36,698 nucleotides of DNA from Gammaproteobacteria bacterium (GTDB lineage Bacteria; Pseudomonadota; Gammaproteobacteria; JAJPIJ01), in the NCBI GenBank assembly GCA_021324815.1, contig JAJPIJ010000011.1, forward strand, positions 1 through 36,698. Direction: 5' to 3'. The notes under the pieces are model-generated. The model worked only from the letters and a program-made list of their open reading frames with translations. It searched no databases and was not told the DNA's origin. The position numbers were made by a program, and so were the translations under genes. Shown here one piece after another: positions 30,417 through 34,278 of this stretch (positions are counted from its first letter, which is position 1; each line of letters opens with the position of its first letter).

Positions 30417-31046
30417 TCACCAGCGCGCGAGGAGCTTGCCATCCTCTATTTTGCACTCGTAACTGCGCAGGGGCCTGTTTCCGACTTTGACGCAGGTTCC
30501 GTCTTTGACGTCGAATGTCCAGCCGTGTTTCGGGCAGGTCAGTTGACGGCCGCTCAATGCCGTTTCCGGAATCAAGGTGCCTTGATGCGGGCAGCGGCGA
30601 TCATAGACGCGGGGTTCCGTGTTCGGATATTGAAAAATCAGCAACGGGCGGCCATCGCGTTCCACCGCCAGCGCCCGGCCCGGTGTCAACGAAGCCAATG
30701 GAATGAGTTCGTGCCACTGGGCCTGTGATTGCAAGGCCTCCTCGCGGAATTCCGGCAGGTCCATGCCATTGATGATCCCGACGGCCCAGACGATTTTGTT
30801 CAAGCCCAGGATGGGCAGGGACAGCAGCATGGCGTCCAGCAATTCACCGCCGCTCCAGCCCGCCTGCAACGCCCGCCGCAGATACTGCCTCAATCCCGGA
30901 TCGGACTGCGCGTCGACCTTGCTCAGGAAGGACAGCAGGGAGCGCGTCCTTGGATCGAGACGGCCGCCGGCGTCCTTGAAAAAGTCGAAATGAGCCCGCA
31001 TGGCTTCTGGCCGCACCCGCAGCAAAAAATCCAGTGCTTCGCTCAT
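30417..31046 (-). CDS. Carboxymuconolactone-decarboxylase-like / Rieske [2Fe-2S] fusion protein
   Basis: A 209-residue cytoplasmic protein of two domains. Residues 1-100 look like an AhpD/CMD-type helical domain (LDPRTRSLLSFLSKV, LRRALQAGWSGGELLDAML, LNKIVWAVGIINGM). They contain no cysteine at all, so the CxxC peroxidase site of AhpD is absent. Residues 110-209 form a Rieske ferredoxin domain with C152-x-H154 (CPHQGT) and C171-x2-H174 (CPKHGWTFD), the full cluster-ligand set, and LRSYECKIEDGKLLARW at the end. The start ATG has AGGAG upstream. It may transfer electrons to or from a substrate bound by the first domain; no function is established. Confidence 0.82.
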   Translation of the reverse strand: MSEALDFLLRVRPEAMRAHFDFFKDAGGRLDPRTRSLLSFLSKVDAQSDPGLRQYLRRALQAGWSGGELLDAMLLSLPILGLNKIVWAVGIINGMDLPEFREEALQSQAQWHELIPLASLTPGRALAVERDGRPLLIFQYPNTEPRVYDRRCPHQGTLIPETALSGRQLTCPKHGWTFDVKDGTCVKVGNRPLRSYECKIEDGKLLARW

Positions 31047-31056
31047 CGCCTTTCTC

Positions 31057-31539
31057 CTATGAGCCCGCCGGTGTCAGCTCAATCACGGTCTCCCGGAATG
31101 CCAGTTTGGGGATGTCGGCAAAATCCACGGGCAGGAAATAATGCACATAATTGGGATGCAAAAAGGCCAGTGTCACGGTGCCAGTATCGCGCATCACGTA
31201 TCGCTCGCTCTTCTTGAACAGCCAGGTGCGGGTGTCCAGGCGGGCGACGACGAAATTCAGTTCGATGCGACCCGCGTCATCCTCGGGTTTGGAGGAACAG
31301 GCGCCCTCCTTGCGCCCGATGAAACACTCGATGTGCACGCCTTCGATTGCCCTGCCGGTGCCCTTCTCCACCAGTTTGAAACGCGGATGCAGCACGTCGC
31401 TCGACATCTGTTCGCGGGTGCCGAACAATCCGTAATAATCCGCCGCCACCGCCGCGCCGGCCAGCAGCACCGCCCCCACCGCAAGTTTGTTGATCATGCC
31501 GCGCATGCCCCCGCTGGTTTTGTGTGCACTGCGTATCAT
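31057..31539 (-). CDS. Membrane-anchored beta-rich protein of unknown function
   Basis: Not recognised. The 160-residue protein has one N-terminal helix (LAVGAVLLAGAAVAADYYGLF, about residues 19-39). The following extracytoplasmic domain (HPRFKLVEKGTGRAIEGVHIEC, AGRIELNFVVARLDTRTWLF, VTLAFLHPNYVHYFLPVDF) resembles a carboxypeptidase-regulatory or transthyretin-like beta sandwich, a weak impression. Two cysteines (IECFIGRKEGACSS) could form a disulfide. The ATG at 31539 has AGGGGG six bases upstream; ATGs at 31506 and 31497 are alternatives. It lies 10 bases upstream of the Rieske fusion, likely one operon. Confidence 0.7.
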   Translation of the reverse strand: MIRSAHKTSGGMRGMINKLAVGAVLLAGAAVAADYYGLFGTREQMSSDVLHPRFKLVEKGTGRAIEGVHIECFIGRKEGACSSKPEDDAGRIELNFVVARLDTRTWLFKKSERYVMRDTGTVTLAFLHPNYVHYFLPVDFADIPKLAFRETVIELTPAGS

Positions 31540-31762
31540 ACAAAACCCCCTGCGGCAGTGCGGCCAGACCGCCTCGCAGTCCAATGCCGGCCACCGCAAT
31601 CCACGGCAACCTGAACCATGCCGCCATGTTCATTTCGTGACGCGTTCCGGCATTCCGGCGCCCGCGCCTTTGTCAATTCGGCAAGGCGCTGATACCATTG
31701 CATTATTGCGAACCGACCCTTATCGCCCAATATTAAACAACTGAAATCAAGCGATTATAACC

Positions 31763-33715
31763 ATGGTGTTCTCCTTTGACATGTCGGGTTCGCAAATCAA
31801 CGGCGCCCGGGATTACCAGGAAGACGCTTTTCTCATCACCCATCTGGGTGACAGCGACAATCCCGACGAAAAGGCGTCGCTGGTCATCGTTGCCGACGGC
31901 ATGGGCGGTCATGCCGCCGGCAACGTCGCCAGCAACATGGCGGTGCAGACCTTCAACAAGTATCTCACCGGCAACTACCCCAGCGATCAGATGCAGACGG
32001 TGCTGCGCGAGGCGGTGCTCGCCGCCAACGGCTCGATAGAACACACCGTCAAGGAAACCGAGGCGCTGAAGGGCATGGGCTGCACCTTCGTCGGCGTCAT
32101 CCTGCACAAATCCAAGATGCGCTGGGTCAGCGTCGGCGACAGCAATTTGTACCTGCTGCGCGACAAGAAACTCATCAAGAAAAACGCCGATCACAGCTAC
32201 GGCGGTTTCCTCGATCGCATGAAGGCCGCCGGCACGCCGGTGAAGCCCGAGCCGGGTTTCTCGCGCAACATGCTGATGAGCGCGCTGACGGGCGAGGACA
32301 TCGCCGAAATTGACTGTCCCGCCGAACCCTTCGAACTCAGGGGCGGCGATCGCATCATTGTTTCCACCGACGGCCTTGACACCCTTTCCGAAGCCAAGAT
32401 CCTGCATTACTGCGACGGCGCCAAAACCGCCAAGGAATGCGTCAAGGCGCTGCTCGACGGCGTCGAGGAGGCGAAGATCCCCCGCCAGGACAACACCACC
32501 GTCGTGGTCATCGACGTCATTGCAAAGGAGGAGAAGGTGGCGGTCGCCCCCCCACCCCCGCCACCTCCCCCACCCCCGCCCCCCCCGCCGGCGCGTGCGT
32601 TGACGGAGGAGGAAGAACAGGACCTCGCCATCACCAAATACGCCCCGCCCGGCGCCGCGCCGCCGATCGTGCCAAAACGCAAGGCCACGCCACCGCCACC
32701 ACCCGTCGAAGAAGAACCGAAACGCAACTGGCCGGCCATCGCCGCCGCCGTTGCGGGGGTGCTCATCGTGGCCGGCGGCGCCGCCTATTACTTCTCCGCG
32801 GGCGGCGGCAAACCCGCGCCGCATGTCGCCGCCAGAAAGCATCACGAAGGGGCGGAAACCGCCCCCGCGGCGCCCACCGCGCCCGCGATGGAGGAAAAGC
32901 CCGCGGCCCCCGCGCCCACGACGGCCGCGGCGCCGCCGGCGCCTGCGCCCGTCACTCCCGCGCCGGCGCCGGCCGCGAAGGCCGAGGAATTCCAGGATGC
33001 GCTCAAGTCCGGCGGCAGCGGACCGGTGATGGTGTGGATCCCGCCCGGCAAATTCGAGATGGGCGCGCCCGCCAGCGCCCCGGAGGCGGATCAACGCCCG
33101 CGGCATGCCGTGCAGATCGGCAAAAAATTCGCCATGAGCAAGTATGAGATCACCGTGGCCGAATACGAAAAGTTCACCAAGGCGGCCGGGCGGCCCGCGC
33201 CCAAGCTGGGCCCCGATTTCAAACCCGAGCATCCGGTGGTCATGGTGTCATGGGAGGACGCGCTCGCCTACAGCCACTGGCTCACCGAGCAGACCGGCTT
33301 CAAATACCGGCTGCCGAGCGAGGCGGAATGGGAATACGCCGCGGCGGCAGGCACCGACAGCTACGAATGGTGGTGGGGGCGCGATCCGGGCCAGGGCAAT
33401 GCCCATTGCTTCGGCTGCGGCTCCGATTTCGACAGCCGCCGCCCCGCCAAGGTGGGGAGTTTCAAGCCCAACCCCTTCGGCCTCTACGACACGGCGGGCA
33501 ACGCCGCCGAGTGGGTGCAGGATTGCTATCACAGCAACTACGAGGGCGCGCCCACCGACGGCAGCGTCTGGGAGGGCGGCAACTGCAACGAACGCGTGGT
33601 GCGGGGCGGCTCCTATGACCAGCCCCCCAAGTCCATCCGCGCCTGCTACCGCGACAAGTTTGATTCCTCGAAGGCCAACGAAGACATCGGCATCCGCGTT
33701 CTGCGCGAGCCCTGA
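31763..33715 (+). CDS. PP2C Ser/Thr phosphatase - transmembrane - SUMF1-like fusion protein
   Basis: A 650-residue fusion. Residues 1-255 form a PP2C phosphatase with the metal-binding set RDYQED (16-21), DGMGGH (45-50), GD125-126, TDG (202-204) and DN (243-244). A run of 14 prolines (263-276) and a charged linker lead to one transmembrane helix (about 324-344) and an Ala/Pro linker. Residues 421-650 are a SUMF1/formylglycine-generating-enzyme-like domain (FEMG, RLPSEAEWEYAAAAG, NPFGLYDTAGNAAEWVQD, RVVRGGSYDQPP). The catalytic cysteines of true FGE are absent after RGGSY, so it is probably a binding fold. The predicted phosphatase is cytoplasmic and the SUMF1 part periplasmic. No good ribosome site precedes the ATG. 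Confidence 0.9.
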   Translation: MVFSFDMSGSQINGARDYQEDAFLITHLGDSDNPDEKASLVIVADGMGGHAAGNVASNMAVQTFNKYLTGNYPSDQMQTVLREAVLAANGSIEHTVKETEALKGMGCTFVGVILHKSKMRWVSVGDSNLYLLRDKKLIKKNADHSYGGFLDRMKAAGTPVKPEPGFSRNMLMSALTGEDIAEIDCPAEPFELRGGDRIIVSTDGLDTLSEAKILHYCDGAKTAKECVKALLDGVEEAKIPRQDNTTVVVIDVIAKEEKVAVAPPPPPPPPPPPPPPARALTEEEEQDLAITKYAPPGAAPPIVPKRKATPPPPPVEEEPKRNWPAIAAAVAGVLIVAGGAAYYFSAGGGKPAPHVAARKHHEGAETAPAAPTAPAMEEKPAAPAPTTAAAPPAPAPVTPAPAPAAKAEEFQDALKSGGSGPVMVWIPPGKFEMGAPASAPEADQRPRHAVQIGKKFAMSKYEITVAEYEKFTKAAGRPAPKLGPDFKPEHPVVMVSWEDALAYSHWLTEQTGFKYRLPSEAEWEYAAAAGTDSYEWWWGRDPGQGNAHCFGCGSDFDSRRPAKVGSFKPNPFGLYDTAGNAAEWVQDCYHSNYEGAPTDGSVWEGGNCNERVVRGGSYDQPPKSIRACYRDKFDSSKANEDIGIRVLREP

Positions 33716-33805: not shown

Positions 33806-34120
33806 TTATTTTTTCTTCTTGTGGCCGCCGCCGCCTTTGACGTATTTGATGGAACACTTGGCCTCCTTGAAGGTGCCGCATACGGCGGGGTCCTTCGCGC
33901 CCGTCCCAATCTTGCCGCCGGCGTAGGCGCCAGTGGGATCGCCGCCATAGGTAAAGCCGGCGGGCATCTCCACCTCCTTGCCGGTCATGTCGTGACCGGT
34001 CGCCGCCACCATGAAGCCGCCGGAAAATTCCCGTGCAGCGAATGGGTTCTCCGCGGCATTGGCGATGGGTGTTGCACTCAAAGTAATGGCTATCGCAGTG
34101 GTTAACGTGGTTTTTTTCAT
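33806..34120 (-). CDS. Small secreted protein with HvfA/BufA1-like N-terminus
   Basis: A 104-residue secreted protein. The signal peptide MKKTTLTTAIAITLSATPIANA is followed immediately by ENPFAAREFSGGFMVAATG, which resembles the conserved NPF...LSxGYMVA segment of HvfA/BufA1 copper-binding peptide precursors. The rest (GFTYGGDPTGAYAGGKIGTG, CGTFKEAKCS, GGGGHKKKK) is glycine- and lysine-rich with two cysteines (C81, C89). It lacks the EGKCG repeats of those precursors, and no BufB or BufC gene is nearby. AGGAG precedes the ATG; the strong terminator at 33743 ends it. The gene is clear; family assignment is tentative. Confidence 0.72.
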   Translation of the reverse strand: MKKTTLTTAIAITLSATPIANAAENPFAAREFSGGFMVAATGHDMTGKEVEMPAGFTYGGDPTGAYAGGKIGTGAKDPAVCGTFKEAKCSIKYVKGGGGHKKKK

Positions 34121-34278
34121 GACGTTTCTCCTCAAACTTGATTCCCGTGGAAACTCGCGACCCCTCCACAGCACTCCCGGAACCGCACCAACTCCGAAAC
34201 TACAATAACCCAAGATGGGTCGGGATGGAAACCGTGACCGTTATTAGAGACGGCAGTCGCCCCTGCACGTCCAGGCGT

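Follow-up and report, generated by a model that had tools for sequence, protein, structure and literature searches.

A gammaproteobacterial contig, analyzed here as a stretch of 36,698 nucleotides (the window), carries a gene in which a PP2C-type Ser/Thr phosphatase is joined through a membrane helix to a SUMF1/FGE-like domain, and this raises the question of which kinases such a phosphatase opposes and what the second domain does for it. The original prediction saw in the protein a one-protein transmembrane receptor whose outer domain would likely sense or bind a ligand. The reading favored here, to which we give a probability of about one half, is that of a single-pass PP2C which would oppose Hanks-type kinases, above all a type with a C-terminal cNMP-binding domain (kinase-cNMP), and whose periplasmic SUMF1 domain would tether or cluster the phosphatase at sites of the envelope.

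Organization of the Gene

The open reading frame starts with ATG, runs over 650 codons without an internal stop and represents a real gene; its parts are as follows.

31763..33715 (+): whole gene, PP2C, linker, transmembrane (TM) helix, linker and SUMF1-like domain; 650 amino acids plus stop; open reading frame and translation, 34 full-length non-redundant homologues
31775..32518 (+): PP2C/PPM phosphatase domain, predicted cytoplasmic, residues ~5-252; Pfam, NCBIfam Stp1 match, PDB relatives including mycobacterial PstP, invariance in the 34 homologues
32519..32737 (+): inner linker, residues 253-325, rich in Pro, Ala and Glu and containing a poly-Pro run; not conserved and predicted to be disordered; pLDDT <50 at 257-324
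32738..32794 (+): core of the TM helix, residues 326-344 (helix 323-345 in the model), predicted N-in/C-out; hydropathy in 34/34 copies, Lys/Arg bias 24 versus 3, helix in the model
32795..32989 (+): outer linker, residues 345-409, Pro/Ala-rich, unconserved, predicted disordered; pLDDT <50 at 346-405
32990..33712 (+): SUMF1/FGE-like domain, predicted extracytoplasmic, residues 410-650; Pfam PF03781 at 3.9e-56, PDB 5hha, conservation

The alignment of 34 non-redundant homologues across both domains indicates that the fusion frame is not a product of chance. A 499-residue frame on the opposite strand (31733-33232, -), which overlaps the gene, was rejected as an Arg/Gly-rich shadow frame.

Both domains and the single helix between them, as read initially from the letters, are borne out by profile searches and hydropathy. 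In the front half, PP2C_2 matches residues 36-206 (2.2e-11; 44.2 bits versus a gathering score of 24), PP2C reaches 34.3 versus 20.3 bits, and SpoIIE is likewise above its Pfam cut-off; in the back half, FGE-sulfatase (PF03781) matches residues 421-648 with 191 bits, versus a gathering cut-off of 23.3. Among NCBIfam models, the front half lies nearest to Stp1/IreP (NF033484), with 136.4 bits against a curated cut-off of 230, and is thus related but below the equivalog level, while the back half lies nearest to PvdO (NF051459), with 159.5 bits, short of the equivalog cut-off of 500. The nearest solved structures by sequence are PvdO (5hha, 3e-38) for the back half and bacterial PP2Cs for the front half, including PstP, whose chain 2cm1 matches the PP2C part at 2.7e-22 in a PDB sequence search.

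Conserved Residues and Catalytic Potential

Conservation was assessed over the 34 non-redundant full-length copies of the fusion, whose mean pairwise identity is 58% in PP2C and 52% in SUMF1. The metal- and phosphate-binding residues of PP2C (R16, D21, D45, G46, D126, D203 and D243) are all present, as had been noticed, and invariant in these homologues; the domain is therefore very probably active. The distance matrices of the two domains are correlated (r 0.60, a value reached in 0 of 2000 permutations), as expected for a long joint inheritance.

The core residues of the SUMF1 part are also strongly conserved. Four cysteines, C549, C552, C588 and C608, are invariant and all belong to this part, while the linkers are Cys-free in the 34 copies and C107 of the PP2C part is found in 97% of them; such a confinement of the invariant cysteines to SUMF1, with none in the linkers, is what would be expected if this domain faced an oxidising compartment outside. 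The catalytic pair of FGE (C336/C341 in the human enzyme) is not conserved among the 34 copies: in the pairwise alignment of the window's copy, C628 stands opposite one of the two cysteines, the second is absent, and other copies differ at position 628, in line with the early reading of the pair as missing.

These residues bear on the possibility that catalysis also takes place in the outer domain, as in PvdO or some other oxidoreductase of the SUMF1 type, and that the phosphatase merely shares its location in the membrane. PvdO, a pyoverdine synthesis protein named as a dehydrogenase in NCBIfam, is the closest solved relative; it has the cysteine pair at the 588/608 positions in common with the fusion, and neither the CxxC pair nor a PP2C domain. 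The conserved SUMF1 core would suit a catalytic role; however, the profile score lies far under the PvdO equivalog level, the FGE cysteine pair is absent, and no biosynthetic genes are found as neighbors, which leaves this explanation improbable.

Membrane Orientation

One hydrophobic segment, sited in the linker region, is found by hydropathy in 34/34 copies, with none elsewhere in the protein. In 24 copies the Lys and Arg residues beside the helix are more numerous towards PP2C than towards SUMF1, and in 3 they are less numerous there (means 2.97 versus 1.12), the window's own copy having 2 versus 3 around the helix and no excess on the PP2C side. Hydropathy and charge together support a predicted topology with PP2C inside and SUMF1 outside, so that the two domains would lie on opposite sides of the membrane, as first proposed; the predicted layout of an inner PP2C (charge bias 24 versus 3), one helix (34/34) and a C-terminal outer domain is that of PstP.

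The linkers vary between 37 and 95 residues on the inner side and between 54 and 106 on the outer side; they are rich in Pro, Ala and Glu and nearly unconserved, with a mean frequency of the top residue of 0.16 (inner) and 0.28 (outer), versus 0.69 in PP2C and 0.64 in SUMF1. Both have pLDDT <50 in an AlphaFold model built from 7 sequences; this model, with a mean pLDDT of 57.7 and its SUMF1 part mostly unresolved, was set aside for fold comparison.

It is on the linkers that the receptor proposed originally is judged. A ligand signal received by SUMF1 would have to pass through the helix and switch PP2C, for example via dimerization and the switch helices of PP2C. The order of parts is that of signaling receptors, switching of PP2C domains through dimerization and through regulatory domains has been described (PMC5468089), and SUMF1 occurs on other inner signaling modules, including a kinase; but linkers so long, unconserved and of such low confidence offer no rigid path, and they fit a tether or a clustering device equally well or better. 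Since linkers of this kind, predicted disordered, would transmit little torque, tethering or clustering is preferred to rigid signaling through the membrane, and the receptor is kept as a possible but less probable explanation.

Occurrence Among Gammaproteobacteria

Six short peptide patterns, run against 84,980 species genomes, retrieved 41 loci, six of which (L019, L020, L021, L022, L028 and L054) have the complete architecture, all in gammaproteobacterial MAGs. In the family/order of the window the fusion was present in 4/4 genomes examined, the three relatives being 86%, 54% and 56% identical to the window's copy. In an even sample of Gammaproteobacteria, PP2C and SUMF1 occur in one frame of about 600-730 residues in 38 of 369 genomes, belonging to 16 families; this is a hand tally from a search that scored only the top three or four candidates per genome, so that absences may reflect the limits of the search, and the counts apply to Gammaproteobacteria, other taxa being hardly sampled. 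In a search of 150 genomes across the phylum, all the matches among those listed were of the same class, and no match covering 80% of the fusion protein was found in plasmid and phage collections. The architecture is thus found in other genomes, on which the original prediction depended; its description as unusual holds for the searched literature, in which the fusion is rare, but not for Gammaproteobacteria, in which it is recurrent.

The neighborhoods of 25 loci, taken across families, consist mostly of housekeeping synteny, and neither a kinase nor any other fixed partner was found beside the fusion gene in them; an operon partner was consequently ruled out. Recurrent neighbors are a DEAH helicase with DUF3418, a Rieske protein, a Na/H exchanger, an MFS transporter, and CYTH and Rdx genes. 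The fusion gene is vertically inherited, single and without a fixed partner.

Three genes close to the fusion in the window deserve a mention in their own right. The product of 30417-31046 (-) joins an N-terminal part resembling carboxymuconolactone decarboxylase (just below cut-off) to a Rieske [2Fe-2S] domain at its C-terminus, an odd combination that is retained near the fusion in 8 of the compared loci. The gene at 31057-31599 (-) is conserved next to the Rieske gene, and its cluster occurs in 8 loci; its product begins with a hydrophobic stretch and matches neither Pfam nor NCBIfam models. On the other side, 33806-34213 (-) encodes a small, secreted-looking protein with a 'NPFAAREFSGGFMVAA' stretch and a Gly/Lys-rich tail, also without an NCBIfam or Pfam match, which is reminiscent of HvfA-like precursors.

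Association with a Type of Hanks Kinase

The window was said to contain no kinase, and a Pfam search of the whole genome agrees: 12 Pkinase matches were obtained, none of them in the window and all on contigs other than its own (C9). A cognate kinase, which the original prediction had suggested looking for elsewhere in the genome, thus has 12 candidates. The same genome has three PP2C_2 matches, and the two PP2Cs other than the fusion, on C26 and C41, both adjoin kinases. At least four of the kinases are of the kinase-cNMP type (three were scanned with Pfam; four match over the full length), and it is this type, exemplified by the 444-residue protein of L009, that tracks the fusion. Over the 369 genomes, kinase-cNMP is present in 34/38 with the fusion versus 31/331 of the others (odds ratio 82, p 1e-25); by family, in 15/16 with the fusion versus 18/166 without it. 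Among 47 genomes with other strong SUMF1 matches it was found in 6, two of which are PP2C-bearing intermediates. Kinases with CHASE2 domains served as a control: their odds ratio of 6.3 overall falls to 1.0 within kinase-cNMP genomes, and the CHASE2 kinase was rejected as a partner, while the kinase-cNMP association persists inside the CHASE2-kinase strata, with odds ratios of 25 and 138. In family f112, the sole one with such linkage, the fusion and a kinase-cNMP gene are separated by a few kb. The fusion and kinase-cNMP are strongly associated; this falls short of proof of a partnership, as kinship was handled at the level of family counts.

The same data weigh on another explanation, in which SUMF1 is a passive anchor and the phosphatase counteracts the kinases of the cell in general, kinase-cNMP having no special place among them. 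A genome with 12 kinases and only three PP2C_2 matches, two of them beside kinases, and a fusion gene with no fixed neighbor would agree with it; on the other side, the co-occurrence is specific to kinase-cNMP in the stratified tests, and SUMF1 is nearly as conserved as PP2C, beyond what a passive anchor would be expected to show. This explanation retains some plausibility, but is considered rather unlikely.

In the mechanism favored here, the protein would be a single-pass Ser/Thr phosphatase of the inner membrane, whose N-terminal PP2C most likely dephosphorylates the targets of Hanks kinases, above all those of the soluble kinase-cNMP type. The C-terminal, non-FGE SUMF1 domain, which would reach into the periplasm at the end of a flexible tether of Pro and Ala, most likely binds a component of the envelope; the phosphatase would thereby be held, clustered or dimerized at certain envelope sites, where local dephosphorylation would be set.

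Proteins with Related SUMF1 Domains

Close relatives of the SUMF1 domain are found in gammaproteobacterial proteins composed of two cNMP-binding domains, a rhodanese domain, a long coiled coil, a TM helix and SUMF1 (L023-L030 and others). As in the fusion, SUMF1 follows the helix; they differ from it in having no PP2C and in carrying their own cNMP-binding, rhodanese and coiled-coil parts. A further relative, L140, sits on a kinase with PEGA repeats. The two designs are united in a protein from two genomes of one family, in which PP2C is placed between the rhodanese domain and the coiled coil (L125:3779-8986, complete; L126:3704-8629, ending where the reading frame ends). In a tree of SUMF1 domains, many forks of which are weakly supported, the PP2C-linked domains cluster save L130, and L125 sits with the coiled-coil type. 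No family in the sample of 369 genomes has both PP2C-SUMF1 and coiled-coil-SUMF1 proteins, versus about two expected by chance on a rough estimate, and complementarity of the two is not claimed.

Other proteins of the FGE fold were noticed in passing. In the source genome, one region (L063, G000 C41:3500-16500) holds adjacent genes for a nucleotide cyclase-FHA protein, a PP2C, a 1447-residue kinase with a degenerate SUMF1 and a 753-residue SUMF1 protein, and looks like a self-contained phospho-signaling cluster. In another (L064, G000 C33), an EgtB-like FGE-fold protein adjoins an EgtD-like methyltransferase, read by eye as ergothioneine-type synthesis genes. Microcystis phages (record NC_008562.1, 41691-42416) encode SUMF1-like proteins about 37% identical to the domain of the window, one of which is annotated 'kinase'.

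Relation to Described Systems

PstP is the nearest known design, having the same order of parts, with PP2C at the N-terminus, and a flexible juxtamembrane linker. As summarized in a recent PP2C survey (PMC12088040), PstP of Mycobacterium tuberculosis is a single-pass membrane protein with a cytoplasmic PP2C and an outer part, a putative PASTA in place of the SUMF1-like domain of the fusion. Unlike PstP, the fusion has no adjacent kinase operon, and its host is Gram-negative. The Ser/Thr kinases with SUMF1/FGE domains, such as the chlamydial DUF323 kinases, already surveyed (PMC1262709), the C41 kinase of the source genome and L140, likewise combine an inner module of Hanks signaling with a C-terminal SUMF1; in them the inner module is a kinase, whereas in the fusion it is the opposing enzyme.

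The H1-T6SS of Pseudomonas aeruginosa uses a SUMF1-like protein, TagR. In that threonine-phosphorylation pathway, periplasmic TagR acts upstream of the Hanks kinase PpkA, whose phosphatase counterpart is PppA (PMC10482370), so that the fusion might be conceived as a fused PppA/TagR-like protein. There, these are separate proteins of a T6SS locus. TssC (PF05943) was not found in the source genome or in three relatives of its family (G000-G003), and occurred in only 1/20 in the search of relatives; T6SS membership is largely refuted for the source genome, and this reading of the fusion is very unlikely.

According to the same PP2C survey (PMC12088040), 90% of annotated PP2C sequences have no extra domain, and the 119 partner domains counted include zinc ribbon, kinase, TPR, cNMP, FHA, MerR and PASTA; FGE/sulfatase is not mentioned in its main text. 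A full-text search for FGE-sulfatase together with PP2C returned only an unrelated co-mention, and no published description of the PP2C-SUMF1 fusion was found. What is new is the PP2C-SUMF1 variant, since membrane PP2Cs, such as PstP, and SUMF1-kinases are already known designs.

Significance

It may tentatively be proposed that these proteins belong to an undescribed pathway, widespread in Gammaproteobacteria, in which the counterpart of cytosolic Hanks kinases gated by cyclic nucleotides would be a membrane PP2C, with an extracytoplasmic SUMF1 determining how active this phosphatase is or where it is located; SUMF1 would act as a swappable outer head, found also on the cNMP-rhodanese-coiled-coil proteins and on kinases. 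If so, an internal second messenger and an envelope signal would be integrated in one circuit. Many outer domains of bacterial Ser/Thr kinases have been studied, while little is known of signals on the side of the PP2C phosphatases; with a conserved outer domain on an intact phosphatase, and a kinase type that is statistically favored, the control of dephosphorylation from the envelope becomes a testable question.
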